Below are positions 11,813-31,910 of a DNA stretch of 64,000 bases, in pieces (the first letter of the stretch is position 1; each line of letters opens with the position of its first letter). The notes under the pieces were generated by a model. It was not told the DNA's origin. It made no database searches and saw only the letters and a list, made by a program, of their open reading frames with translations. A program made the translations under genes and the position numbers. This DNA comes from Nocardia bhagyanarayanae. GTDB lineage: Bacteria > Actinomycetota > Actinomycetes > Mycobacteriales > Mycobacteriaceae. The stretch spans positions 372,001 through 436,000 of the forward strand of contig NZ_VFPG01000002.1 in NCBI RefSeq assembly GCF_006716565.1. Reading direction: 5' to 3'.

Positions 11813-12040
11813 GGGAGTTTTCGGGCGCGGGCCGAGTGGTCGTGCAGTCCACCGTGCCCGCGAAAAGGGGGCTTCCGTTCCGGTTGGCAGGATGGCAAGG
11901 TTGTTGTGCTCGTCACCGTCATGCGCTCCGCTTTCCTGGAGAATGTGACAACTGGGTTTTCCGGAAATATCCTCGAGTGATCTTCACTCGGTCTTCCCGG
12001 GGTGGTGAGGATTGCTGGAAACCCGAGATGTGGAGCTTGC
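11813..12040. other. 228-bp intergenic region after lepA
   Basis: CGCGGGC (11826-11832) pairs with GCCCGCG (11856-11862) around a 23-base loop; this may terminate lepA but has no U-run. The rest is less GC-rich than the flanks and probably holds the promoter of the downstream large gene. No gene is seen. Confidence 0.4.
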
Positions 12041-14224
12041 ATGACGCGTGACCTGCCTTTCGACGACGACACCGAGGTTGCCGAGCCCGAGGGGGACATC
12101 GCGTACCGTGTGGCGACCGGCGTCGCGCGCGTCGCGAGGGCCGGAGCGTACGTGACCGGCGGCGCCCTGATCGCCTCCAACGGCGGCGGAGTTCCGGCCC
12201 AACCGGATGGACAGCGTCTGGACAGCTGGAACGCGGGCTGGGCGCAAACGACCGACCCGGATCCCGATGTGCCGAGCCCCGTTGTCACCTTCCCGGATCC
12301 GGACCCCGATTCGCTGCCGCTCGCGCCGCCGCTCACCGCGGGTCCGCCGAACGCCGTCACCGCGCCGCTGCCGTCCACGCCCGGGTTCGAGCTCGGGCCC
12401 GCGCCCAAGCCGTCCGAGGACTACTGGACCAACAACCGCCCCGGCGAAACGGAGACCGAGTCGCCGTACGAGTGGTGGGACAGTCAGGGCGCCCCGAGCC
12501 CCGGCTTCGCCCCGACGCCGGGGTTCTCCGAGACTCCGGAGTACGGGGAGTGGAACCAGAGCCCGAGCGCGCCCGCCGAGTCCGCGCCCGGTTCGGCGTC
12601 GCCGTACGAATGGTGGGATCAGCAGGGTTTCGGCCTGCCGGGCCACGGACTGGGCCCGGCAGGGCACGGTTTCGGTATGCCGGGTAGTGACGGCTTCGTC
12701 GCGCCGGGCTCCAATCCGTTTGCGCTGCCGAAGATCCCCGCCGCCAAGGAGGCGAGCGACGGCGCGTCCGCCGGTGACAGCGCCCTGCCCGCCGACAACC
12801 TGTTCCGGACCGGCGACATGTTCGACGGGGTGGGGGCCGCGCCGGGGGACTTCGGCGTGTACCTGGGCGCCGACGCGAGCGCGGAGATCTGGACCCACTT
12901 GGACGTCGATTTCGGCGTCACCCCCGAAGGCGTGTACCTGACCACCGATCTGCGGGTCGAGGCCTCCGCGGGACTTACCGTGAAGTCGGCGGCGGGCACC
13001 AACATCGGCGACCAGCTCGACAACTTCTCGGACTGGCTCGAGGGTTCGCGCCCGGAGAGCGGCGCCGCCCGTGGCGCGGACCAGCAGCAGCCCGGTGCGA
13101 CGGCCGGTGGCACCGGTCTCGCGAGCGGTCTCTCGACTTCTGCCGCGCCTGCACCCGCGCCGGTCGCGCACGCGGCGCCCGCGCTCGCCGCACCGCAGCC
13201 GGTCGCTCCCGCGGTGGCCGCGGCGCCCGCGCCCGTGGCTCATGTCGCGACGTCCGCGCCCGTGGCTCCCGCGGTGGCCGCGCCCGCGGCCGTCGCCGCG
13301 CCCGCCGCTGTCGCCGCCCCCGTGGCGGCGACTCCGCTGCAGACCACGATTCAGCCGGAGGCCGCGACGACGCCCATCGCGAACGTCTTCGGCACGCCGG
13401 CGGGTCCGTCCCCGCTGACCGCGCCCGCGGCCGCGGTGCCCGCGCTGTTCGATCAGCACGTGCGGCCGACCACCGGCCCGTCGCCGGTGACCGGCGTCCC
13501 CAACCCGGCCGACACCTACCCGGGGACCACCGCGCCGACCACGATCACCCAGACGGTGCCGACGCCCAGCGTGCCGACTCCGACCAAGCCGGACACCGGC
13601 ACCGTGCCGACCCTGGAACCGGGCGTCACCAAGGTGCCGGGCGTGACCGTCCTGCCCACGCCGGGCGGCGGCGCCGACGTGATCACCAAGACGCCCGGCG
13701 TCACGGTGACCCCGCAGCCGTCCACCCCCGACGTCGACATCACCACCCCGGGCGGCGGAACCACCGGCGGCGGCACCGGAACGACCGGCGGAAGCACGGG
13801 GACCACGGGCGGCAACACCGGCGGCGGCGCCGGGACGGGCGGCGGCACCGGCACCGGCGGTACGGCCAACCCGGGCACGACCTACCCCACCGGCGGCCAG
13901 AGCACCCCCGACGTCCCCACGGTCTCGGTGCCTTCGCAGCCCCCGACGTACGACGCGCCGACGCAGGCGCCTACCGTTCCTTCTGTCGATGTCGACGCGC
14001 CGTCGGTCGTCGTGCCGACGCCGGTCACGCCGGTCAAGCCGCCGGTACTGGTCGAGCCGCCGAAGACGCGCCCGATCAGCGACGAGCTCGACCACGCGAG
14101 CTACCACCAGGTGGTCGCGCAGATGCCGATCGAGCACGGCGGACTGGGCGCGGGGCTGCTGCCGGGGACCACCATGACCGAGACACACCACCCGATCGCG
14201 GGACCGGACGTAACCCTGGTCTGA
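12041..14224 (+). CDS. Large Pro/Ala/Gly/Thr-rich protein upstream of a dynamin-like gene
   Basis: A 727-residue protein not recognised as any named family. The acidic N-terminus is followed by one modest hydrophobic stretch (about residues 20-47), then low-complexity sequence with a twice-repeated SPYEWWD motif (about 141-147 and 187-193). A non-repetitive block at about 270-335 (FGVYLGADASAEIW, GVYLTTDLRVEASAGL) looks folded and beta-rich. The remainder is Ala/Pro-rich, then Thr/Pro- and Gly-rich. I start at ATG 12041 (MTRDLPFDDD) rather than 12002. It lies 73 bases before a dynamin-like GTPase gene and is probably co-transcribed, so an IniB-like partner role is possible, but the IniB N-terminal domain is not evident. 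Confidence 0.7.
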   Translation: MTRDLPFDDDTEVAEPEGDIAYRVATGVARVARAGAYVTGGALIASNGGGVPAQPDGQRLDSWNAGWAQTTDPDPDVPSPVVTFPDPDPDSLPLAPPLTAGPPNAVTAPLPSTPGFELGPAPKPSEDYWTNNRPGETETESPYEWWDSQGAPSPGFAPTPGFSETPEYGEWNQSPSAPAESAPGSASPYEWWDQQGFGLPGHGLGPAGHGFGMPGSDGFVAPGSNPFALPKIPAAKEASDGASAGDSALPADNLFRTGDMFDGVGAAPGDFGVYLGADASAEIWTHLDVDFGVTPEGVYLTTDLRVEASAGLTVKSAAGTNIGDQLDNFSDWLEGSRPESGAARGADQQQPGATAGGTGLASGLSTSAAPAPAPVAHAAPALAAPQPVAPAVAAAPAPVAHVATSAPVAPAVAAPAAVAAPAAVAAPVAATPLQTTIQPEAATTPIANVFGTPAGPSPLTAPAAAVPALFDQHVRPTTGPSPVTGVPNPADTYPGTTAPTTITQTVPTPSVPTPTKPDTGTVPTLEPGVTKVPGVTVLPTPGGGADVITKTPGVTVTPQPSTPDVDITTPGGGTTGGGTGTTGGSTGTTGGNTGGGAGTGGGTGTGGTANPGTTYPTGGQSTPDVPTVSVPSQPPTYDAPTQAPTVPSVDVDAPSVVVPTPVTPVKPPVLVEPPKTRPISDELDHASYHQVVAQMPIEHGGLGAGLLPGTTMTETHHPIAGPDVTLV

Positions 14225-14297: not shown

Positions 14298-16088
14298 TTG
14301 TCTGCCGCAGCCGGGCTGGAGTCCGCGACGGTGAAACACCCGGACGCGATGGCACCGCTCATCCGGGTACTGGACGAACTGCGGGAGATGGCTCGCTCCG
14401 CGGGCCGCGACGACCTCGGCGGTCGGCTGAGCATGGTTCGTGCCAGGATCGGGGACCCGCGGGTCCGTCTCGTCGTTGTCGGCGATCCGAAGAACGGCAT
14501 GAGCACGCTCGTCAACAGCCTGGTAGGGGCGCAGGTGAGCGCCACCGAGACGGCACTGAGCGCACCGGTGATCGTGGAGTACGGCCCGGAGCCGACCGCC
14601 ACGCTGGTCAGGTCGACCGGGCCGGGCCGCACCGAGCGCCAGCCGGTGGACCCGCTGAATCCCGGTCCCGCGCTGGCCGCGCACGGCGTGATCCGCGCCG
14701 AATTCACCGAGCCGAGTGCGCTGCTCGCCGACGGCATCGTCCTGATGGACGCGCCGGGCTCCGGCGACGAGCACACCCGCTGGTCGATGATCGCGGCCGC
14801 CGACGCCGTGCTCTACGTCGCGGAGGCGTCGGCCGAGCTGACCCCCGTGCAGCTGGAGTATCTGCAGCGGGTGCAGCAGCTCTGTCCGACGGTCATCTGC
14901 GTGCTCAACAAGATCGACGTGCACCCGCAGTGGTCGCACGTGCAGCAGCGCAACCGCGATCTGCTCGACGCGGCCGGTCTCGGCTTCGCGGTGGCGCCGG
15001 TCTCCGCGCTGCTGCACCGGCAGGCGGGCAGCTACCAGCGCGACATCGAGTCCGGGGTGCCGCAGCTGATCGACCACCTGCGCGACTACGTGGTGGCGCG
15101 CGCCGATGCGGTGGCCCGTGACGCGGCCCTGCGTGACATCCGGCTTGTGGCAGACCATCTCGCGGTCACCCTGTACACCGAGGCCGAGGCGCTGCGCGAT
15201 CCGCGCCGCCGCGCCCAGATCACCGAGCAGCTGATCGCGGCCCGCGACGAGGCCGATCAGTTGCGCCAGCGCACCGCCAACTGGCAGGTCGCCTTGGCCG
15301 ACGGCGCCACCGAGCTGATGGCCGATATCGAGCACGACCTGCGCCACCGGCTGCGCAGCCTGGTGCGCGACGCCGAGGCCGAGATCGCGCAGACCGATCC
15401 GGCGCGCGGCTGGAAGGAGTTCGGCGCCGACCTGGACGCGCGCATCTGCGAGGCCGTCGAGGAGAACTTCGTCATGGCGCACTACCGGTCGGTGGAGCTG
15501 TGCGAGCAGGTGGCCGCGAAGTTCCCCGCCGACAATCGCACCCCGCCGCTGCCCGACCTACGCCTGACCAACCCTGGTGAGGTGCTGGAGGCAGTGGCTC
15601 CGCTGGAGTCGCTCGACAGCGCGAAAGGCGGTGTGACCGAACAGATTCTGTCCGGTCTGCGCGGTTCCTACGGCGGTATCCTGATGGTCGGTCTCGCCAC
15701 CAGCCTGCTCGGCATGTCGCTGGTGAACTGGTACTCGGCGGGCGCGGGCGTGCTGCTCGGCGTCAACGCGATCTGGGACGACCGCAAGAACCGCAAGCTG
15801 CGCCGTCGCGCCGAGGCCAAGGTCGCGGTGGCCAGGCTGATGGACGACGTGATCTTCCAGGTGAGCAAGGAATCGCGAAACCGGTTGCGCGCCATGCAGC
15901 GAACGCTGCGCGACCACTTCACCGACATCGCCACCGACGCGCTGCGCACGGCCGACGAGGCACTGCGCGTCGCGGAGGACGCCTACGGCAAGTACGGCGA
16001 CCGTCGCGAGGACCGCATCGCCGAACTCGACAGCAGTCTCGGCAAGCTGCGGGCCGTCCGCGACCGCGCCGACACCCTCGCCGCCTGA
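14298..16088 (+). CDS. Dynamin-like GTPase of the IniA/IniC type
   Basis: The 596-residue product has a GTPase domain with G1 GDPKNGMST (62-70), G3 DAPG (151-154) and G4 NKID (204-207), long helical regions, and a hydrophobic segment at about 459-493 that resembles the membrane-inserting paddle of bacterial dynamins. In mycobacteria IniA and IniC are induced by cell-wall drugs and remodel membranes. The G1 loop has Met where most P-loops have Lys (GMST, not GKST), which may change nucleotide handling. The TTG start follows AGGAGG four bases upstream; ATG 14349 is an alternative. Likely one operon with the upstream low-complexity gene. Confidence 0.85.
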   Translation: MSAAAGLESATVKHPDAMAPLIRVLDELREMARSAGRDDLGGRLSMVRARIGDPRVRLVVVGDPKNGMSTLVNSLVGAQVSATETALSAPVIVEYGPEPTATLVRSTGPGRTERQPVDPLNPGPALAAHGVIRAEFTEPSALLADGIVLMDAPGSGDEHTRWSMIAAADAVLYVAEASAELTPVQLEYLQRVQQLCPTVICVLNKIDVHPQWSHVQQRNRDLLDAAGLGFAVAPVSALLHRQAGSYQRDIESGVPQLIDHLRDYVVARADAVARDAALRDIRLVADHLAVTLYTEAEALRDPRRRAQITEQLIAARDEADQLRQRTANWQVALADGATELMADIEHDLRHRLRSLVRDAEAEIAQTDPARGWKEFGADLDARICEAVEENFVMAHYRSVELCEQVAAKFPADNRTPPLPDLRLTNPGEVLEAVAPLESLDSAKGGVTEQILSGLRGSYGGILMVGLATSLLGMSLVNWYSAGAGVLLGVNAIWDDRKNRKLRRRAEAKVAVARLMDDVIFQVSKESRNRLRAMQRTLRDHFTDIATDALRTADEALRVAEDAYGKYGDRREDRIAELDSSLGKLRAVRDRADTLAA

Positions 16089-16130: not shown

Positions 16131-18119
16131 TCAGACCGGGCCGATCGGCGGGGAATGGGCGGGCTGGAACTGTCCGGCCTCACGCCGCTCCTCGGCCCTG
16201 ATCACGTGCGTCACCGCGTTGATCAGCGCCAGATGGGTGAACGCCTGCGGGTAGTTGCCCAGATGACGTCCGCTGCGCGGGTCGATCTCCTCGGCGTAGA
16301 GGCGCAGCGGGCTGGCGAAGCCGAGCAGACGCTCGCACAGGTGCCTGGCCCGCTGCAGTTCGCCGATCTCGACCAGCGCGGACACCAGCCAGAACGAGCA
16401 GATCGTGAAAGTGCCCTCCTCGCCGGACAGCCCGTCGTCGGTGGTCTCGGTGCGATAGCGCAGCACCAGCCCGTTGTCGGTGAGCCGGTCGGCGATGGCG
16501 AGCACGGTGGCCCGCACGCGGTGATCGTCGGGCGGCAGGAATCGGGTCAGCACCACCAGCAGCAGCGAGGCGTCCAAGGTGTTCCCGCCGTAGGTCTGGG
16601 TGAAGACGCCTTCGCTGGTCACGCCGTTGGCGAGGACGTCGTCCCTGATCTCCTCGGCGATCGCGTACCACTCGGTGGCGCGCTGGAACTGGCCGTGCAT
16701 CTCGGCGAGTTTGGCGCCGCGATCCAGCGCCACCCAGCACATCACCTTCGAGGACGTGAAGTGCTGGGTTTCCCCGCGCACCTCCCAAATGCCTCGGTCG
16801 GGCTCGCGCCAGTGCTTGATCGCGGCGTTCACCTGCCGCTCCAGCAGCGGCCACAGCGTTTCCGGAACCTGCTGGCGCGACTTCACATACAGATACACCG
16901 TGTCGAGCATGGTGCCCCAGATGTCGTGCTGGTCCTGGTTGAACGCGGCGTTGCCGATGCGGACCGGCTGGGCGCCGTCGTAGCCCTTCAGATACTCCAG
17001 TTCGCTCTCGACGATGTCGCGTTCGCCGCCGATGCCGTAAAGCACTTGGAGCTCGACGGGTTCGCCGTGCGCACCGGTGGTCGCGTCGTTGAGGAAGCAG
17101 AAGAAGTCGTCGGCCTCGCGGTCGAGTCCGAGTGTGTACAGGCCCCACAGCGCGAAGCTGGAGTCGCGCACCCAGCTGTAGCGGTAGTCCCAATTGCGTT
17201 CCCCGCCCGGGGTTTCCGGAAGTGACGTGGTTGCCGCGGCCATCAGCGCTCCGGTCGGCGCGTAGGTCAGGCCCTTGAGTGTCAACGCGCTGCGCTGTAA
17301 GTAGTTGCGCCACGGGTGATCCGGGAAATTGCCGAGGGTGATCCACTGCCGCCAGCATTCGATGGTGGCCCACATCTTCTGCGCCGCCTCCTCGAACGTC
17401 CGCGGGGCGGGCAGATCCGACCAGGTGAGCGCGACGAAGATCTGATCGCCTTCCTTCATCCTGGTACGCGCGCGAGCTTCGCGCCCCTCCAGGCCGAGGC
17501 GCAGATCGGTGGTGAGCACCAGGCTCGGGCCGCCGCTGGGATCGATGGTGCGCACCGCGGTGGCCTCTTCGTAGACCTTGCCGGTGTATTCCCAGCGGGC
17601 GGTGTCACGGTGGTAATCGAAGGAAGGCTGGCAGCTCATCTCCAGCTCGGCGGTGCCGTTCACGCACTTCACCGTGCGCAGCAACACGTGCTCGGCGTCC
17701 CAGTCCATCGGCGTGCGGCGGTAGGTCTTGCTGCGCTGATCGTTGTTGTGCCACGGGCCGAGTACCAGCGCGTCGCGCACGATGAGCCAGCCGGTCTCGG
17801 TCTGCCAAGTGGTCTCCAGGATCATGCCGCCGGGCAGGTAGCGACGCGCCGCCGGCACGTTGACGCCGTACGGGCCGATCCGGAAGTGCCCGGCGCTGCG
17901 ATCGAGCATCGCGCCGAAAATGCTGGGGGAGTCGGGGCGCGGTACGCACATCCACTCGACCGCGCCGTTGCTCGCGACCAGGCAATTGGTCTCGCAGTCG
18001 GAGAGGAAGGCGTAGTCGTCGATGGGCGGATGAGCGCCGCGGTGCCTGCTCGGAGACAGCGCACTCAGCACTGGCAGGTCGTCGGGCTTGTCGATGCTCA
18101 GATCATCCGTTGACGCCAT
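16131..18119 (-). CDS. Glycoside hydrolase family 15 protein, probable trehalase
   Basis: The 662-residue product matches the GH15 glucoamylase/trehalase family: an N-terminal beta-sandwich with YAFLSDCETNCLVASNGAVEW and a C-terminal (alpha/alpha)6 barrel with GGERNWDYRYSWVRDSSFAL and LYAEEIDP, which carry the usual catalytic acid region and the second conserved Glu. In M. tuberculosis the homologue at this locus (Rv2402) is described as a trehalase that hydrolyses trehalose to glucose. The start at ATG 18119 gives MASTDDLSID; a start 12 codons earlier lacks support. No signal peptide, so cytoplasmic. Convergent with the dynamin gene. Confidence 0.92.
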   Translation of the reverse strand: MASTDDLSIDKPDDLPVLSALSPSRHRGAHPPIDDYAFLSDCETNCLVASNGAVEWMCVPRPDSPSIFGAMLDRSAGHFRIGPYGVNVPAARRYLPGGMILETTWQTETGWLIVRDALVLGPWHNNDQRSKTYRRTPMDWDAEHVLLRTVKCVNGTAELEMSCQPSFDYHRDTARWEYTGKVYEEATAVRTIDPSGGPSLVLTTDLRLGLEGREARARTRMKEGDQIFVALTWSDLPAPRTFEEAAQKMWATIECWRQWITLGNFPDHPWRNYLQRSALTLKGLTYAPTGALMAAATTSLPETPGGERNWDYRYSWVRDSSFALWGLYTLGLDREADDFFCFLNDATTGAHGEPVELQVLYGIGGERDIVESELEYLKGYDGAQPVRIGNAAFNQDQHDIWGTMLDTVYLYVKSRQQVPETLWPLLERQVNAAIKHWREPDRGIWEVRGETQHFTSSKVMCWVALDRGAKLAEMHGQFQRATEWYAIAEEIRDDVLANGVTSEGVFTQTYGGNTLDASLLLVVLTRFLPPDDHRVRATVLAIADRLTDNGLVLRYRTETTDDGLSGEEGTFTICSFWLVSALVEIGELQRARHLCERLLGFASPLRLYAEEIDPRSGRHLGNYPQAFTHLALINAVTHVIRAEERREAGQFQPAHSPPIGPV

Positions 18120-18202
18120 ACCCCATGATGTGTGCCACGCGCGCCCGCCGTCCACCGAATGCGCCGGTCGGTTGCTCGGCTCGGGCCAGTAGGCTGGTAT
18201 TC

Positions 18203-24361: not shown

Positions 24362-25477
24362 ATGGCAGTTGGTCTTGGTTTGAGCATCGGCACGGTCAAT
24401 TCGGTGACCGCGCTGGCGGACACGGCATCGGCCAAAGCGCCGCCGGGTCGGCTCGGTCACCGTCGGCACGCGCGGCCAACGCCCTCCGTCACCCGGCGCA
24501 CCACCTTGACCTTCGACAGCACCGGTTCCGCGCGGGTCGGCCTGATTCCGCGGCACGGCCGCGCCATCACCGAATTCGCCGACCTCGGCCTGCGCGACGG
24601 CATGACGGCCAGGGTCGGCCACCGCACGCTCCGGCCCGCGGATCTCGTCGCGGTGGTCACCGACTGCCTCATCACCGAGGCGATGAGCGATCGGAAGGCG
24701 GTCGGCGCGGAGGTCGCGCTGACCCACCCGGCGGGCTACGGGACGGACGAGCTGGCCGAGCTACGCGGCGCGCTGGACGCGGTCGGTCTGCACCACGTCG
24801 CGCTGGTCGCCGAACCGGTCGCGGCGGCGGCCTGGCTGGAGGCGGCGCACGGTCCGCTGATGCCCGGCCTCGCGCTGGTCTACGACCTCGGTGGCGCGAG
24901 TCTGGACGTCACGCTGGTCCGGGTCGGCGCGGGCAGGCCGCGCGATCCGATCGTCGGGGTTCCGCTGCGTTCCCCGGAGTTCGGCGGGCGCGCGTTCGGC
25001 GCGCTGCTCGCGGCGCGGGGGAGCGGGGCGTCCTCGGTGGCGGGAACAGCGAACGATCTCGCCGACGAGTTGCGCGCCGAGCACGCGCGCGCCTCGCTGG
25101 AACTGGTCTACCGCTGCTTGAGCACGGCCGACGTCACCATGGCCGACGTCGACTGCGTGCTGGTGGCGGGTGGCGCGGCCCGGCCGCCGGAGATCTCCGG
25201 CGTGCTCGCCGCGGAATTGGCGCGACCGGTGGTGATCGCGCCCGATCCGGAACGCACGATCGCGGACGGCGCGGCGCTGCTCGCGCGGCAGACGGCGGCG
25301 TCCGCCGAGGAAGCGGCCGCGGGAGCGCACCGCAGGGGTAAGGGCCTGCTGCGCTCGCGGCGCAAGCTGACCAGGGTGGCGTCGGCCGCGGCGTTGTCCG
25401 CGGGCGGTGTCGTGCTCGCTTTCGCACTGCCCGCAGACGGTGCGGTCGCGGGGTTGGCACCGTTCGGACTGCTCTGA
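24362..25477 (+). CDS. Hsp70-like ATPase without substrate-binding domain, C-terminal membrane anchor
   Basis: The 371-residue product carries an actin/Hsp70-type nucleotide-binding fold: phosphate-1 LSIGTVNS (7-14), the AEPVAAA motif (150-156), phosphate-2 YDLGGAS (174-180) and adenosine motif VLVAGGAARPP (266-276). The loops differ from DnaK (for example DLGT replaced by SIGT). The Hsp70 substrate-binding domain is missing. Instead an Arg/Lys-rich stretch (RRGKGLLRSRRK, about 324-335) precedes a hydrophobic helix (339-357), the positive-inside layout of a single membrane anchor. A paralogue lies at 29589. Such genes occur near dynamin-like genes in mycolata; function unknown. A strong terminator follows. 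Confidence 0.82.
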   Translation: MAVGLGLSIGTVNSVTALADTASAKAPPGRLGHRRHARPTPSVTRRTTLTFDSTGSARVGLIPRHGRAITEFADLGLRDGMTARVGHRTLRPADLVAVVTDCLITEAMSDRKAVGAEVALTHPAGYGTDELAELRGALDAVGLHHVALVAEPVAAAAWLEAAHGPLMPGLALVYDLGGASLDVTLVRVGAGRPRDPIVGVPLRSPEFGGRAFGALLAARGSGASSVAGTANDLADELRAEHARASLELVYRCLSTADVTMADVDCVLVAGGAARPPEISGVLAAELARPVVIAPDPERTIADGAALLARQTAASAEEAAAGAHRRGKGLLRSRRKLTRVASAAALSAGGVVLAFALPADGAVAGLAPFGLL

Positions 25478-25488
25478 CCCTGGTCACA

Positions 25489-25525
25489 ACGGCGGCGGTC
25501 GGGTGGATCACCCGGCCGCCGCCGT
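25489..25525 (+). terminator. Terminator after the first Hsp70-like gene
   Basis: ACGGCGGCGGTCGGGTG pairs with CACCCGGCCGCCGCCGT across a GAT loop with a single G-U-type mismatch, a 17-base stem just after the gene. There is no strong U-run. Confidence 0.7.
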
Positions 25526-25638
25526 CTGATGTGTGGGTACCGCGGGCTCGGGCCGGGCGGCACCCGACCGCGTGAGTTGACGTCACTCGTCGTAGGTGTA
25601 ACTATGGGGTACAGGTAATACGTCCCCCGAGGAAGGCA

Positions 25639-26652
25639 GTGACGACGATGTCGACAGCCGAGAAGCACGCTATCGATCCCGATCTCGAGCAGGCGCAGAA
25701 ATACGCCGCGAAGCTGCTGCTGCTGTCCGAGGGCTCGGTGAACAAGCACTTCGACCCGTTCGAGGACATCGACTGGGACAACCCCGACTACGCCGCCGAC
25801 GCGGGCGAAGAGCGCTGGATCCTGCCGCGCTCGGCCGACCCGCTCGGCCGCCACCCCTGGTACCTGGCCCTGCCGAAGGACAAGCAGATCGAACTCGGCA
25901 AGTACCGTCAGGCCAACGTCGCCAAGGTCGGTCTGCAGTTCGAGTCGATCCTGATCAGCGGCATGGTCATCCACAACTTCGGCCTGCCCAACGGTTCGCC
26001 CGAGTTCCGGTACTGCTCCCACGAGATGATCGAGGAGCACAACCACACCCTGATGTTCCAGGAGATGGTGAACCGGATCGGCATCGACGTGCCCGGCATG
26101 GGCCCGCTGGTGAGCATGTTCAAGTACCTCGCCGCGCCGGTCGCCGCGAAGATGCCGAACCTGTTCTTCATGGCCGTGCTCGCCGGCGAGGAGCCGATCG
26201 ACCACATCCAGAAGGAGATCCTGCGCTCCGGCGAAGAGGTTCACCCGATCATGCTCGGCGTGATGGCCATCCACGTCGCCGAGGAGGCGCGCCACATCTC
26301 CTTCGCGCACGAGTTCCTCAAGAAGCACGTGCCCGAGCAGGGCAAGCTCAACAAGTTCGTGCTGTCGATCGCGATGCCGGTCATCATGTGGATCCTCGGC
26401 CGCTCCATCGCGACCCCGCCGAAGACGTTCTTCAAGGAGTTCGACATCCCGGAGAAGGTCCGCAAGGAGCTGTTCTACGGCTCCAAGGAGGCCAAGCAGG
26501 TCTTCGCCGACTACTTCGTGGACGTGCGGGCGCTGGCCAAGGACCTCGGCCTGATCAACCCGGTCTCCAAGCGGGTGTGGAAGCTGCTGGGCATCGACGG
26601 CCCGATGAGCCGCTACCGCTCGGAGCCGCTGCGCGTCGTGCACGCGAGCTGA
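25639..26652 (+). CDS. AurF-like diiron oxygenase
   Basis: The 337-residue product fits the diiron oxygenase family containing the N-oxygenase AurF. Four-helix-bundle iron ligands are visible as E in QFESILISG, EMIEEHNH (ExxH), E in AGEEPIDHIQKE and HVAEEARHISFAHE (ExxH). Such enzymes oxidise amines or hydroxylate small molecules using O2 and electrons. GTG 25639 has GAGGA five bases upstream; ATG 25648 is an alternative. The next gene, 13 bases on, encodes a ferredoxin-NADP reductase with a ferredoxin domain, probably its electron donor. Substrate unknown. Confidence 0.85.
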   Translation: MTTMSTAEKHAIDPDLEQAQKYAAKLLLLSEGSVNKHFDPFEDIDWDNPDYAADAGEERWILPRSADPLGRHPWYLALPKDKQIELGKYRQANVAKVGLQFESILISGMVIHNFGLPNGSPEFRYCSHEMIEEHNHTLMFQEMVNRIGIDVPGMGPLVSMFKYLAAPVAAKMPNLFFMAVLAGEEPIDHIQKEILRSGEEVHPIMLGVMAIHVAEEARHISFAHEFLKKHVPEQGKLNKFVLSIAMPVIMWILGRSIATPPKTFFKEFDIPEKVRKELFYGSKEAKQVFADYFVDVRALAKDLGLINPVSKRVWKLLGIDGPMSRYRSEPLRVVHAS

Positions 26653-26665
26653 GCGGCGGTCCACC

Positions 26666-28252
26666 ATGCCCTACGTCGTCACCCAATCCTGTTGCAGCGA
26701 CGCGTCTTGCGTGTACGCCTGCCCGGTCAACTGCATCCATCCCACGCCCGACGAGCCCGACTTCCTGACGGCGGAGATGCTGTACGTCGACCCGAAGGCC
26801 TGCGTGGACTGCGGCGCGTGCGCCACGGCCTGCCCCGTCGACGCCATCACCTCGTCGAAGAAGCTGACCGAGGAGCAGAAGCCCTTCATCGAGATCAACG
26901 CCGACTTCTACCGGCAGACCCGGCCGCGCCCGCTGCTGGCCCGCCCGGTGCCCGCGGCGGAGATCCGCACCGAGCGCGCGCCGCTGCGGGTGGCGATCGT
27001 CGGTTCCGGCCCGTCGGCGATGTACGCCGCGGACGAGCTGCTGACCCAGCCGAACGTGTCCGTCACCGTGTTCGACCGGCTGCCGGTGCCCTACGGTCTG
27101 GCCCGGCACGGCGTCGCGCCGGACCATGCCAAGACCAGGCAGGTCAGCAGGCTGTTCGACGTGATCTCGGCGCAGCCCGGCTTCGGCTCGTACCTGAACG
27201 TCGAGGTCGGCTCGCACGTGACGCACGAGGAGCTGCTCGGCCACTTCCACGCGGTGATCTACGCCGTCGGCGCGTCCTCGGACCGCAAGCTCGGCATCCC
27301 CGGTGAGGGCCTGCCGGGCAACGTCTCGGCCACCGACTTCGTCGCTTGGTACAACGGTCATCCCGATCACGCCGACGCGCGGTTCGATCTGTCGCAGAAG
27401 CGCGCGGTGATCGTCGGCAACGGCAACGTCGCGCTGGACGTGGCCCGCATCCTGGCCAGTGACCCGGAGACCCTCGTCGGCACCGACATCGCGCCGCACG
27501 CGCTGCGGGCGTTGCGGGAGAGCAAGATCGAAGAGGTGGTCGTGCTCGGCCGCCGCGGTCCGGCCGAATCCGCGTTCACCGTCCCCGAGTTCGTGGGTCT
27601 GCTCGGCTCCGACGTGGACATCGCGATCGAGGGCGAGCTGCCGGAGATCACCGCGGACCTGCCGTACAAGATCGAACAGAAGCTGCGCCTGCTGCACAGC
27701 GTCGCCGATCGCCCGTTCGGCGACCGCAAGCGAATCGTGTTCCGCTACTTGGCCGCGCCCACCGCCGTGCTCGGCGATGACCAGGTGACCGGCCTGGAGA
27801 TCGGTCGCAACGAGCTCGTCAGCGGGGCCGACGGACGCACCACGGCCGTCGCCACCGGCGAGACCGAGCGGATCGAGGCCGGGCTCGTGCTCACCTCGGT
27901 CGGCTACCGCGGTGTGCCGTTGCGCGGGCTGCCCTTCGACGAGCGGGCGGGTGTGATCCCGAACGAGAACGGCCGGGTGCTCGGCGAAGCGGGTGGCGCG
28001 GTGCTGCCCGGCGCCTACGTGACCGGCTGGATCAAGCGCGGTCCCACCGGCTTCATCGGCACCAACAAGTCCTGCGCGCAGGAGACCGTCCGGCAGCTGG
28101 CCGACGACTACAACGCCGGTCGCCTGCCCGAACCCGCGCGCGGCGCCGCCGATTTCGATCGGCTGGTGCGCGGCCGCAGGCCCGAGGTCGTCGCGAGCGG
28201 CAACGTGGTCGGGCAGCCGAAGCCGTTGCGCAGGCTGCTCGCCCGGGTCTGA
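26666..28252 (+). CDS. fprB: Ferredoxin/ferredoxin-NADP reductase, FprB type
   Basis: A 528-residue fusion of an N-terminal bacterial ferredoxin (residues 1-75; CCSDASCVYACPVNC and CVDCGACATACPVD cysteine clusters for 7Fe or 2x4Fe centres) with an adrenodoxin-reductase-like FAD/NADP domain. The FAD motif is VAIVGSGPSAMYAADELL and the NADP motif AVIVGNGNVALDVARIL. This matches mycobacterial FprB. It moves electrons from NADPH to its own or another ferredoxin. The 13-base gap after the diiron oxygenase gene indicates an operon and a donor role. Cytoplasmic. Confidence 0.92.
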   Translation: MPYVVTQSCCSDASCVYACPVNCIHPTPDEPDFLTAEMLYVDPKACVDCGACATACPVDAITSSKKLTEEQKPFIEINADFYRQTRPRPLLARPVPAAEIRTERAPLRVAIVGSGPSAMYAADELLTQPNVSVTVFDRLPVPYGLARHGVAPDHAKTRQVSRLFDVISAQPGFGSYLNVEVGSHVTHEELLGHFHAVIYAVGASSDRKLGIPGEGLPGNVSATDFVAWYNGHPDHADARFDLSQKRAVIVGNGNVALDVARILASDPETLVGTDIAPHALRALRESKIEEVVVLGRRGPAESAFTVPEFVGLLGSDVDIAIEGELPEITADLPYKIEQKLRLLHSVADRPFGDRKRIVFRYLAAPTAVLGDDQVTGLEIGRNELVSGADGRTTAVATGETERIEAGLVLTSVGYRGVPLRGLPFDERAGVIPNENGRVLGEAGGAVLPGAYVTGWIKRGPTGFIGTNKSCAQETVRQLADDYNAGRLPEPARGAADFDRLVRGRRPEVVASGNVVGQPKPLRRLLARV

Positions 28253-28270
28253 AGCCAGGGCGCAGACGCT

Positions 28271-28303
28271 CGAACGCCACGACGATGATCGTCGTGGCGT
28301 TCG
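28271..28303. terminator. Perfect 15-bp stem between fprB and SDR gene
   Basis: CGAACGCCACGACGA and its exact reverse complement flank a TGA loop. It lies between two convergent genes and probably terminates transcription from both sides despite lacking a U-run. Confidence 0.75.
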
Positions 28304-28314
28304 TCGTCGTGTGC

Positions 28315-29076
28315 TCAGCGCGCGGTGAACCCGCCGTCGATCGCGAGGGCCGCGCCGGTGACGAAGCTCGCCTCGCTGCTGAGCAGATAGGCGCAGAACG
28401 AGGCGATCTCGTCCGGCGCGGCGATCCGACCGAGCGGGTGCAGCGCCGCGATGGCCGCCTCCCCTTCGGGCGTGGCGCCCATCGAATTCCGAAACGCCGG
28501 GGTGTCCACCGCGCCGGACACCAGCGCGTTCACCCGGACGCCCTGTTCGGCGGACTCCAGCGCGACGGCCTTGGTCAGCCCGACGACGCCGTGCTTGGCG
28601 GCCACGTAGGGCGCCACCGAACCCATGCCGACTACACCCAGGTTCGACGCGTTGTTCAGGATCGCGCCGCCACCCGAGGCGACGAGCGCCGGGACCTGAT
28701 GGCGCAGGCCGTAGAACACGGCCGTGAGATTGAGTTCCAGATCCGCGCGCCAGCCCGCCTCGTCGATCTCGGCCACCGGACCGAACGCCTGCACCGCCCC
28801 CGCGTTGTTGAATGCCATGTCCAGACGGCCGTATTCGCTGACGGCGACTTCGGTCAGCCTGGCGACGTCGGCCTCCACCGTGACGTCGGTCGGGACGAAC
28901 AGCGCTCGGCCGCCCGCCCCGCGGATCTCCTCGGCGACTCGTTCACCAGCGTCCTTGCCGCGCGCCCCGAGAACCACCGCGGCGCCCTCGGCGGCCAGAC
29001 GCAGCGCCACCGCCTTACCGATGCCCGAGCTCGCGCCCGTGATCACCGCGACCTGCTCCGCGAACCGTGTCGACAT
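28315..29076 (-). CDS. Short-chain dehydrogenase/reductase (classical SDR)
   Basis: The 253-residue product has the full classical SDR set: cofactor loop TGASSGIG (14-21), NNAG, catalytic Ser region, and YVAAK with catalytic Tyr and Lys, ending with the usual VTGAALAIDGGFTAR. It reduces or oxidises a carbonyl/alcohol with NAD(P); the Arg after the first strand (LGARGKDAG) favours NADPH. Substrate unknown. It is convergent with fprB and stands alone; a palindromic site about 170 bases upstream may regulate it. Confidence 0.9.
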   Translation of the reverse strand: MSTRFAEQVAVITGASSGIGKAVALRLAAEGAAVVLGARGKDAGERVAEEIRGAGGRALFVPTDVTVEADVARLTEVAVSEYGRLDMAFNNAGAVQAFGPVAEIDEAGWRADLELNLTAVFYGLRHQVPALVASGGGAILNNASNLGVVGMGSVAPYVAAKHGVVGLTKAVALESAEQGVRVNALVSGAVDTPAFRNSMGATPEGEAAIAALHPLGRIAAPDEIASFCAYLLSSEASFVTGAALAIDGGFTAR

Positions 29077-29588
29077 CTGTGCCCACTTTCCTTCTCGTTC
29101 TTGCCTTTTCGCTGTGGCGGAGGGTGCCGCCGTATTCAGTCAACCGAGGGCACGACGGCATCGCTGGCGGTAATCGGACGTGGCGTTTGATGTGTCATCT
29201 AAATGGGCGCGAGGCGCGCCTGTGTGAAATTAGTGGCGCTGGCTAAGTACTGGTTACCGACCAGTCGGTGTGTGTCGACCGATGTGCCGATCGCGCCCGG
29301 TGGCTGGTTCCGGCTACCTGCCGGTAGTGAAACGAAGTCGCTGTGCGATAGCGGGACCGTGTGCCCCGCAGACGCTCTCCGGCGTGTCGAGGGGGCTGAA
29401 CCGTTTCGGATGGTGCTGTCTACCTGGTCATTCGAATGATCATTGCCGGAACCCAAACGTTCCATATCAATTCAGCATCCGGAAAGTTCCATCAGCAGCT
29501 AACCTGTGGGGGCTGTTTGGAAGACGACCGCGGCCACACGGCTCGACTGTGTGCTGGACGTGGTCACGGTGCGTTGACGGGATAGCGA
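29077..29588. promoter_or_regulatory. 512-bp divergent region with overlapping palindromes
   Basis: This AT-richer spacer separates the SDR gene from the second Hsp70-like gene. ACTGGT-N5-ACCAGT (29249-29265) overlaps ACCGAC-CA-GTCGGT (29256-29269), a form common in TetR-type operators. No regulator gene is adjacent. An 88-codon minus frame (29199-29465) has no family features and is not called. Confidence 0.5.
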
Positions 29589-31910
29589 ATGACTACATGT
29601 CTGGGTTTCAGCATCGGTTCAGTGAACTCCATAGCGGCTTCCGTGACCGAAGGTCTGATTCGACCCACGGTGCGCACCAGGCGCACGGCACTCACGTTCG
29701 ACAACGCGGGCGGCGCCCGCATCAGTGGCATTCCCCAGTTCAGTTCGGCCATCACCGATTTCGCCGACCTGGCGCGCGACCCGGAACACTTGGTCGTCGG
29801 CGGCAGGATCTTCTCCCCGGCGAACCTCGTCGCCGCGGTGGTGACCGGACTGCTGGAGGCGGCCGAGCCGAGCGCGGGTGTGGTGGCCACCTATCCGGCC
29901 ATCTACACCGACAAGCAGCTCGCTCTACTACGCCAGGCGCTCGACCTCAACGGCGCCCGGCACGTCATGCTGATACCCGAGCCGGTCGCCGCGGCCGAAT
30001 GGCTCGAATACGAGCACGGTCCGCTGGAGACCGGCTTCGTCCTCGTCTACGACCTCGGCGGCACCAGCCTCGACGTGTCCGTCGTGCGCGTCGGACCGGA
30101 CTGGGGTAACCATCCCATCGTCGGAAAGCCGCAGCGCTCCTACGATTTCGGCGGCCGCCCGCTCGGCGGCATGATCGCACGGTACGCACGCACCGGCGTC
30201 CCCGCCGCCACACTGTCGATGACCTCCATCGTCGATGTCGACGGCCTGCGCGCCGAACACATCAGGGATTCCTTCGATGTGGTGCGCGCCTGCCTGCGCT
30301 CCACCGGCCTCAGCCTCTCCGAAATCGGACGCGTGCTGGTCGTCGGCGGCGCGTCCCGGCCCGCCGAGGTCGCCGGGACGCTGGCCGAGCTCGGCCGCCC
30401 GGTGGTGCGATCGGCCGATCCAGGCCAGGTGGTCGCCGTCGGGGCCGCGCAGTTCGCGGTGCGCACCTTCGCCCCGGCGAGCACCGGGGAACGGCCCGCC
30501 CCGCGCGTGGCCGTATTCTCCAGCGCCGCAGTGGCTTCGGCGCTCGCCATGTCGGCGGCCACCGTCTTCGGCGGCTCCGGCGACACCGGTCTGCTCCCGG
30601 TGCTGGACCGCTTCCCGGCCGCCGCGCCGGTACCCGCCGACGCGCTGCTCTACGAGCCCAACGGCGGTACCGCGTTCGATCAGGCCGTGCGGCAGGGCCT
30701 TCCGGCGCCCGCGGCGCAGTACGCGTTCTCCGGCGGCGGTTACGACCGATTCGTCTCTTCGGTCGGGCGCAGCGCGCCGCTCGGACCGTCGATCGGCGAG
30801 TCGCGCGGCGGGTCGCACAACGATTCCCGAACCTGCTGCGGCGATGGCCGATACGCGGGGACCCAGTACGCCAACCCCGCCCAGTTCATCAACCCGCTGC
30901 CCTTCACCAAGCGCGTGCCGCGGGTGAGCCTCCCGGCCTGGGAGCGGCTGAACCCCTCGCTTCCGGGCATCGGCCTGCCGTCGGAGCCGAACACCAATCC
31001 GGCCCCGAACCCCTCGGCCCCGAATCCGTCCGCTCCGAACCCGTCGGCGCCGGTGGATCCCTCGACCCCGGGCAACACTCAGCCCGGCTCGGGCACACCG
31101 TCCACGCCCGGATCGGGCGGGTCGACCACCGGGGGCGCGACGTCGCCCGGTGGGACCGATACGTCGACGGGCGGGGCCGGTTCCGATGGGTCGGGCGGAA
31201 ATTCGACGCCGGGCGGGGACACGTCGGGCGGCGCTTCGGGGGGATCGTCCGGCGGCACCGGTGGCGCGTCCGGGGGCGGCACCGGTGGGGCGTCGGACGG
31301 CGCGGGCGGTGCGTCCGGCGGTGGTGCTGACGGTAGCTCCGGTGGTGCCTCGTCGGGTGGTGCGTCCGGAGACGGTGGTTCGGATGGCGGTTCGTCCGGT
31401 GGTGCTTCGGGCGGCGGTGCTTCCGCCGGTGGAGGAGCTTCGTCCGGCGGTGATTCGTCTGGCGGTGGGGCGTCTTCCGGCGGTGGTGCGTCCTCGGGCG
31501 GTGGCGCGTCGAGTGGCGGTGCTTCCGCCGGTGGAGGAGCCTCGGGCGGCGGTGAATCGGCCGGTGGCGGAGCGTCATCGGGTGGTGGCGCATCGAGTGG
31601 CGCCTCGGGTGGCGGAGCGTCTTCCAGCGGCACATCCTCGGGCGGCGGCACATCCTCGGGCGGCGGCACATCCTCGGGCGGCGGAACCTCCGCGGGCGGC
31701 GGGGCCTCCTCGGGTGGTACGTCGTCCGGCGGTGCCTCCTCGGGCCGCTCAGGCGGAACCTCCCCCGGCGGTTCGACTTCCGGCGGCTCCGGCGGCAGCT
31801 CGAAACCCGGCGGTTCTGGTGCGGGCGGCGGCTCCAAGGTGGGCGGCGGTGCTGGCGGCGCTGGTGGTGCCGGCGGCGGAGGAGCTGCCGGTGGTGGCGC
31901 CCGGCGCTGA
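29589..31910 (+). CDS. Hsp70-like ATPase with membrane anchor and long Gly/Ser-rich tail
   Basis: A 773-residue paralogue of the 24362 gene. Residues 1-295 form the Hsp70-type nucleotide-binding fold: FSIGSVNS (7-14), PEPVAAA (130-136), YDLGGTS (154-160), VLVVGGASRPAE (249-260). A hydrophobic segment at about 307-327 suggests a membrane anchor. The tail begins with an ordered-looking Cys-containing region (RTCCGDG), continues with SAPNP repeats (about 475-488), and ends in some 280 residues of Gly/Ser/Ala repeats with few other residues. No Hsp70 substrate-binding domain exists. Topology (ATPase inside, tail outside) is inferred. The repeat tract is prone to length change. Confidence 0.8.
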   Translation: MTTCLGFSIGSVNSIAASVTEGLIRPTVRTRRTALTFDNAGGARISGIPQFSSAITDFADLARDPEHLVVGGRIFSPANLVAAVVTGLLEAAEPSAGVVATYPAIYTDKQLALLRQALDLNGARHVMLIPEPVAAAEWLEYEHGPLETGFVLVYDLGGTSLDVSVVRVGPDWGNHPIVGKPQRSYDFGGRPLGGMIARYARTGVPAATLSMTSIVDVDGLRAEHIRDSFDVVRACLRSTGLSLSEIGRVLVVGGASRPAEVAGTLAELGRPVVRSADPGQVVAVGAAQFAVRTFAPASTGERPAPRVAVFSSAAVASALAMSAATVFGGSGDTGLLPVLDRFPAAAPVPADALLYEPNGGTAFDQAVRQGLPAPAAQYAFSGGGYDRFVSSVGRSAPLGPSIGESRGGSHNDSRTCCGDGRYAGTQYANPAQFINPLPFTKRVPRVSLPAWERLNPSLPGIGLPSEPNTNPAPNPSAPNPSAPNPSAPVDPSTPGNTQPGSGTPSTPGSGGSTTGGATSPGGTDTSTGGAGSDGSGGNSTPGGDTSGGASGGSSGGTGGASGGGTGGASDGAGGASGGGADGSSGGASSGGASGDGGSDGGSSGGASGGGASAGGGASSGGDSSGGGASSGGGASSGGGASSGGASAGGGASGGGESAGGGASSGGGASSGASGGGASSSGTSSGGGTSSGGGTSSGGGTSAGGGASSGGTSSGGASSGRSGGTSPGGSTSGGSGGSSKPGGSGAGGGSKVGGGAGGAGGAGGGGAAGGGARR

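Follow-up and report, generated by a model that had tools for sequence, protein, structure and literature searches.

The closest described relatives of the proteins considered here come from mycobacteria. MSMEG_0692/Rv0312, described as ‘proline and threonine-rich’ with one transmembrane helix, is among the 25 proteins exclusive to FhaA pull-downs, and the same FhaA-only set contains MviN, CwsA and SecD (PMC11898655). Rv0312 carries an Hsp70 domain and is listed in the MtrA regulon (PMC11126594). Here, we analyse two related genes, A and B, in a 64,000-nucleotide stretch of the Nocardia bhagyanarayanae genome (assembly GCF_006716565.1, contig NZ_VFPG01000002.1, positions 372,001 to 436,000; hereafter the window, whose own numbering is used throughout). 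Both genes encode an Hsp70-type nucleotide-binding domain (NBD) followed by a hydrophobic segment, and we put at about even the chances that their products, derived from Hsp70 and independent of hydrolysis, serve the cell envelope as membrane-associated scaffolds or sensors.

A second point of comparison is iniBAC, a cell-wall-stress operon under the control of IniR that is induced by free trehalose (PMC5760070). IniB, IniA and IniC with IniR constitute an isoniazid-inducible envelope-stress module, and other members of the family to which A and B belong lie beside or inside that locus. In the accessible text of the open-licence literature we found no paper tying an Hsp70-like protein to the ini locus; ‘heat shock’ is absent from the available part of PMC5760070, ‘Hsp70’ and ‘DnaK’ from that of PMC13413693, and ‘transmembrane’ from those of PMC8265645 and PMC11019930.

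Compared by description, as far as the available sources go, Rv0312/MSMEG_0692 resembles the A/B family in its Hsp70 domain, single transmembrane helix and Pro/Thr-rich character, and Mycobacterium sequences of the Rv0312-type plan show the same Asp-to-Ser change as A and B. Unlike that plan, A and B are without most of lobe IIB and their anchors are weaker; B is further set apart by its Gly/Ser tail and PxxFxNPxPF block. With DnaK and other Hsp70 proteins they share the NBD fold and the phosphate-2 and adenosine motifs, but they are without the substrate-binding domain, the catalytic Asp and Lys, and most of lobe IIB. The resemblance to MreB and Mbl is one of actin superfamily, with weak Pfam matches under the cut-off. 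In contrast to the ini module, the window holds no IniB or IniR; A lies 8 kb from an IniA-like dynamin with an altered P-loop. GspL of type II secretion, with its actin-like cytoplasmic domain, one transmembrane helix and outside domain, offers a comparison of working principle only.

Two Hsp70-type folds without a substrate-binding domain

The two genes are as follows (window coordinates, strand, description, basis).

24362..25477, +, protein A, 371 aa: Hsp70-type NBD, no substrate-binding domain, short C-terminal hydrophobic segment (open reading frame, Pfam, model)
29589..31910, +, protein B, 773 aa: Hsp70-type NBD, then a hydrophobic segment and a tail presumed to be exported (open reading frame, Pfam, model)

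An earlier note on this DNA had placed two open reading frames (ORFs) at these positions, and both are present and intact. At the aligned position the start codon is ATG in 21/21 orthologues of A and in 33 of the 34 orthologues of B, the remaining one having TTG. The actin-superfamily fold of Hsp70 type that the note proposed is borne out by Pfam, by structural models and by structure matches. Pfam HSP70 scores over its cut-off for both proteins, with matches confined to profile positions 100-208 and 301-372 of 599, and the structural match to Hsp70 NBDs stops near residue 300 in B and residue 320 in A. The substrate-binding domain is absent from both, as the note had held, the Pfam matches falling only in the NBD part. 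Beyond residue 300 the model of B has mostly a predicted local distance difference test (pLDDT) score below 50.

In the comparison with DnaK and MreB that the note had recommended, the 50 structure matches listed for each of A and B are all of Hsp70 type (MreB is not thereby excluded), and the two MreB profile scores, 21.8 and 12.4, fall short of the Pfam cut-off of 27. On these two grounds an MreB-type filament was set aside. For the cytoskeletal or secretion device that the note envisaged we found no evidence, in a window of which not every gene was scanned for one.

Loss of catalytic residues and of lobe IIB

The nucleotide-related features of A and B are listed below.

24374..24403, +, A phosphate-1, LGLSIGTVNS; catalytic Asp replaced by Ser8 in 22/22
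24881..24907, +, A phosphate-2, YDLGGASLD; Asp175 invariant, last Asp in 16/22
25157..25192, +, A adenosine motif, VLVAGGAARPPE
29601..29630, +, B phosphate-1, LGFSIGSVNS; Asp replaced by Ser8 in 34/35, by Cys in one
30048..30074, +, B phosphate-2, YDLGGTSLD
30195..30236, +, short loop replacing most of lobe IIB in B (residues ~217-265 of the genome’s own DnaK missing; alignment)
30333..30371, +, B adenosine motif, VLVVGGASRPAEV

All three motifs had been reported as kept. This holds for phosphate-2 and adenosine, but at phosphate-1 the glycines are retained and the Asp has given way to Ser or Cys (the counts of 22 A and 35 B include the window sequences). Among 52 same-family sequences aligned to the own-genome DnaK (28 from Mycobacterium, 15 other Nocardia or g24 paralogues, four A and five B), D8, K70 and T199 each occur in 0/52, and D194 and two adenosine glycines in 52/52. 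The 38 relatives that belong to other families of the order all have D8, D194, T199 and D201, and K70 and E171 are each found in 36. Four further ORFs from family f15 have D8 and have lost K70 and D194, which brings the totals outside the family to 42/42 for D8, 36/42 for K70 and 38/42 for D194.

The region of lobe IIB measures 5-18 residues in A and B against 38-63 in the other groups, as judged from four aligned A and five aligned B sequences plus a distance pattern that matched 22/22 A and 16/35 B. Its loss takes out the equivalent of a Lys that contacts adenine in Hsp70. Neither A nor B has the phosphate-1 Asp and catalytic Lys of a DnaK-type chaperone. With the equivalents of D8, K70 and T199 gone and most of lobe IIB missing, the label ‘ATPase’ given to these proteins by the earlier note is unsupported; from their sequences, A and B are probably dead as ATPases. 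A working chaperone or ATPase was set aside on the loss of the catalytic residues and the deletion of most of IIB.

Hydrophobic segments and the tail of B

Downstream of the NBD the two proteins carry the following features.

25367..25435, +, A hydrophobic segment, residues 336-358, marginal; missing in 5/22
30504..30569, +, hydrophobic segment of B (residues 306-327), Ala/Ser positions nearly invariant
30876..30905, +, conserved block of B past the segment, PAQFINPLPF (residues 430-439)
30990..31088, +, spacer of B rich in Pro and Asn (residues 468-500)
31089..31907, +, low-complexity Gly/Ser/Ala repeats of B (residues 501-773)

A hydrophobic segment right after the fold had been described in both proteins. 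Models and structure matches do put it outside the fold, and it is not buried in the ATPase core, the arrangement that would have counted against the note; by its predicted energetics, it is a marginal membrane segment in both A and B. The proposed link to the membrane fares similarly: a membrane-associated Hsp70 fold is supported, and most relatives have a clear transmembrane segment after the NBD, with negative insertion energies in 74 of the 82 ORFs parsed, but the segments of A and B themselves are weak. (The 82 parsed come from 99 ORFs, through patterns biased to D and S at phosphate-1; the four f15 ORFs added above are among the 17 unparsed.) The insertion energies are estimates, judged against an ABC permease encoded in the window (positive control, best value -1.6) and the NBDs (negative controls, minima 1.55 to 4.06). 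Predicted energies for the A segment, ahead of which lies a basic flank, run from -0.26 to +1.66 kcal/mol in the 17 of 22 sequences that have it, and every B segment scores below the minimum of its own NBD. The five genomes in which A is without the segment (L043, L048, L051, L052 and L053) also have no cysT/W/A matches in the fetched loci.

The segment of B is strongly conserved in its small residues (A313, A314, S317, A318, A320, S322 and A323 in 34/34, S311 in 32/34). The tail that follows it is 446 residues long, close to the 440 or so residues of Pro/Ser/Gly repeats previously described, but only residues 501-773 are repetitive, and their composition is 47% G, 25% S, 13% A and 2% P. A conserved block, P430-x-x-F-x-N-P-x-P-F439, lies within residues 329-467. 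P430, F433, P438 and F439 occur in 34/34 sequences, N435 in 31 and P436 in 33, and the exact PxxFxNPxPF pattern in 31/34. Set against the plan of the actinobacterial family (Hsp70 NBD, no substrate-binding domain, hydrophobic segment and tail), B has every element and A only part, having no long tail and, in 5/22, no segment.

Distribution and phylogeny

B is present in 34 of 35 same-genus genomes, the exception being 78% complete, which is more than chance would give; A is present in 21/35, and 20 of these 21 genomes have B on the contig that carries A. A profile of A, which also detects B, found nothing at E 1e-10 in 17 genomes from other genera of the family, and a broader profile matched 146/150 genomes of the order at E 1e-12, a count in which DnaK itself may be included. 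Among the 120 matches listed for B, the named relatives are Nocardia proteins, usually labelled ‘Hsp70 family protein’ and in a few cases ‘hypothetical protein’ or ‘Hsp70 protein’. A query from genus g23 (Mycobacterium/Mycolicibacterium) returned as named organisms only Mycobacterium, Mycolicibacterium and ‘Mycobacteriaceae bacterium’ among the 120 matches listed, where the name Rv0312 does not appear. Fifty-one loci were retrieved with an ini-adjacent query, 49 of them titled Mycobacterium or Mycolicibacterium and two from an Actinomycetota metagenome-assembled genome; M. tuberculosis is not among the 51. Ser occupies phosphate-1 in 51/51 of these loci and likewise in 28/28 parsed Mycobacterium sequences.

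The sequences of family f1 form one clade in two trees (Shimodaira-Hasegawa-like approximate likelihood ratio test, SH-aLRT, 93 and 96), nested in relatives that keep the Asp, and A and B form a single branch with a support of 100. A and B, having lost the phosphate-1 Asp, thus belong to an Asp-less Mycobacteriaceae clade. One half of the tree (63 rows, support 89) contains all members scored as ini-adjacent and the other (31 rows, support 97) none, adjacency having been scored by hand, with the rows ‘not’ adjacent including some whose adjacency was not examined. The deepest ini-adjacent members (L068, L090 and L100) retain the full catalytic set, and the catalytic losses in f15 and f1 are separate. 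These trees are quick searches with SH-aLRT support only, and carry a risk of long branches meeting.

Several other paralogues were recorded. One, encoded elsewhere in the genome, shares 98% identity with a protein of Nocardia amikacinitolerans. Three Nocardia genomes (L148, L143 and L144) have a short Hsp70-like paralogue in a frame of 353-373 aa, with Ser at phosphate-1 and a tail of 24-28 residues. On the L036-type paralogues (P0123 and others) PF23717 stands as a precomputed annotation, and hmmscan against the Pfam copy searched gave no match to it at E 0.01.

Family members at ini loci

A paralogue in the same genome belongs to an ini-like cluster (L037; contig C1:1812000-1831500) that encodes two Hsp70-like proteins. 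On one side of the paralogue stands an IniB-type ORF, with two dynamin-like genes after it, and on the other a large, IniR-like regulator of LuxR type. The IniB-type ORF matches IniB_NTERM with 65 bits (NCBIfam cut-off 40), and the regulator matches IniR over its length with 511 bits, below the cut-off of 750; the genome has no other IniB_NTERM match and no other long IniR match. Two ORFs of this locus are weakly similar to the Rv1815-type serine proteinase. An IniB-like ORF adjoins the paralogue in 7/7 Nocardia loci and dynamin genes appear in 4/7, the other three loci ending first; as the seven were picked by the L037 paralogue itself, this speaks for conservation, not enrichment.

In Mycobacterium sp. 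GA-0227b (L156) a dynamin is followed by IniB and a member of the Rv0340 family; next, in divergent orientation, come an Hsp70-like gene, IniR (1424 bits against a cut-off of 750) and another Hsp70-like gene. One or more ini genes lie nearby in 35 of the 51 loci described above (IniB in 34, Rv0340 in 34, IniR in 31, an IniA-type dynamin in 29), again a measure of conservation and not of enrichment given the ini-adjacent query. A less biased measure starts from the dynamins: 39 genomes gave 41 loci of IniA type, and by hand comparison at least 23 of these loci have a family member no more than 10 kb away on their contig, two of the 23 being of the A-linked type of the window.

Two further loci have a related layout. 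L207 (G044, family f10) has two dynamin-type genes, a Gly-rich ORF (no NCBIfam match) and a divergent gene joining Hsp70 to a transmembrane segment, with the full catalytic set, and is an ini layout outside the family. L218 (G009, C252) is a dynamin/Hsp70-like/dynamin-type locus with LGIKIG at phosphate-1.

Genes around A and B

The following features lie upstream of A.

12002-14224, long Pro/Ala/Thr-rich ORF, approximate start, immediately before the dynamin
14331..16088, +, IniA-like dynamin, candidate partner linked to A, 8 kb ahead of it (alignment, Pfam)
14481..14507, +, altered P-loop of the dynamin, GDPKNGMST (Lys replaced by Met)
16134-18155, -, GH15 gene between the dynamin and A, closest to trehalases

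The window dynamin is 38.9% identical to the L037 dynamin over 592 columns (E 4e-120) and matches Pfam Dynamin_N with 35.9 bits (cut-off 27). Its G-M-S-T P-loop is common to 12/12 fetched orthologues, and five ini-type dynamins (L037, L156, L207, L217 and L218) have G-K-S. Orthologues occur in 22/23 same-genus genomes; in 16 of the 22 the contig also carries B less than 20 kb away, with gaps of 9.9 to 18.6 kb. The ORF upstream of the dynamin has no Pfam or NCBIfam match, and the trehalase matches of the GH15 gene are below NCBIfam cut-offs.

The interval from A to B holds genes for an AurF-type diiron oxygenase and a ferredoxin/FAD reductase (both by Pfam) and, on the opposite strand, a short-chain dehydrogenase (by reading). 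A functional unit with the oxygenase and reductase was rejected: each occurs in 32/35 loci (from 34 genomes, G026 giving two) and in 11/14 loci without A, so their proximity is plain synteny.

Discussion

Our preferred model is that the cytoplasmic pseudo-NBD of B would dock onto a cytosolic partner, most likely an ini-type (IniA/IniC) dynamin or an envelope-growth protein such as FhaA; the hydrophobic segment would span the membrane, and the tail would extend into the mycolate envelope and report on its state. A may be a tail-less partner of B. It is the genes found around other family members that bring in the iniBAC/IniR envelope-stress dynamin module as a candidate. A number of observations weigh against this model, and they are taken here with the explanations that they favour.

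The strongest challenge concerns the partner. The ini connection could belong only to other branches of the family, with A and B unrelated to it and the window dynamin nearby by chance, which we regard as a serious prospect, if somewhat on the doubtful side. The window has no IniB or IniR (the whole own genome was searched), so that A and B have no adjacent IniR and IniB-type genes; the dynamin is 8 kb from A with several unrelated genes between; and it is unlinked to B in G001, G011 and G019, the contig ending in G003, G004 and G009. Elsewhere, 18 of the 41 dynamin loci have no family member listed within 10 kb (14 of these 18 being in family f14), and 20/28 sampled Mycobacterium paralogues, or 29/43 clade members outside A/B, are not scored as ini-adjacent. 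Against this explanation stand the linkage retained in 16/22 genomes and the phylogeny, in which A and B fall within the half-tree that contains every scored ini-adjacent member.

A and B might instead be soluble or peripheral scaffolds, in which the segment is a packing or amphipathic helix and the tail of B is cytoplasmic; we consider this rather unlikely. The predicted insertion energy of the B segment is positive in 34/34 sequences (+1.07 to +1.94 kcal/mol) and overlaps across sequences with the lowest NBD minima, so membrane crossing by B is uncertain, and its invariant Ala and Ser residues suggest helix packing. Five of 22 A proteins stop at ...TRVAAI/L or ...ARVAAI, before any segment, and the anchor of A is hence not a conserved feature. 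The clear transmembrane segment of the relatives and the basic flank ahead of the A segment argue against soluble or peripheral scaffolds.

That A and B are working ATPases, in which another set of residues drives ATP cycling, as a chaperone or a filament, is very improbable. They retain the NBD fold, D194 of phosphate-2, the adenosine glycines and E171 (4/4 A, 5/5 B), and D201 in 16/22 A and 35/35 B, so that nucleotide binding is possible. In the model of A, confidence is low for residues 1-90, the stretch that contains phosphate-1. The phosphate-1 Asp, the catalytic Lys, T199 and most of IIB are nevertheless gone, and there is no substrate-binding domain. Least probable of all, and only slightly conceivable, is that A and B are decaying paralogues with no important role, which would accord with their catalytic and IIB losses and with A being in just 21/35 same-genus genomes, but hardly with B in 34/35, the many invariant columns across 22 A sequences, or the near-invariant segment and tail block of B.

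If the scaffold or sensor reading is extended to the whole family, Hsp70-derived pseudo-ATPases may be a constant but overlooked component of the ini envelope-stress system, a membrane receptor or scaffold found from Mycobacterium to Nocardia and beyond. The window could then be a second offshoot of the module, silenced in its catalysis, in which a dynamin with a Met P-loop and two ATPase-dead Hsp70-like proteins tune or template the active one. We offer this tentatively, as a rather unlikely outcome. If true, the Hsp70-like pseudo-ATPases at the ini locus of many mycobacteria and Nocardia would be a new and testable partner of that system. They would, moreover, exemplify the conversion of an Hsp70 domain into a scaffold, within a lineage in which catalytic residues have been lost in at least two branches.

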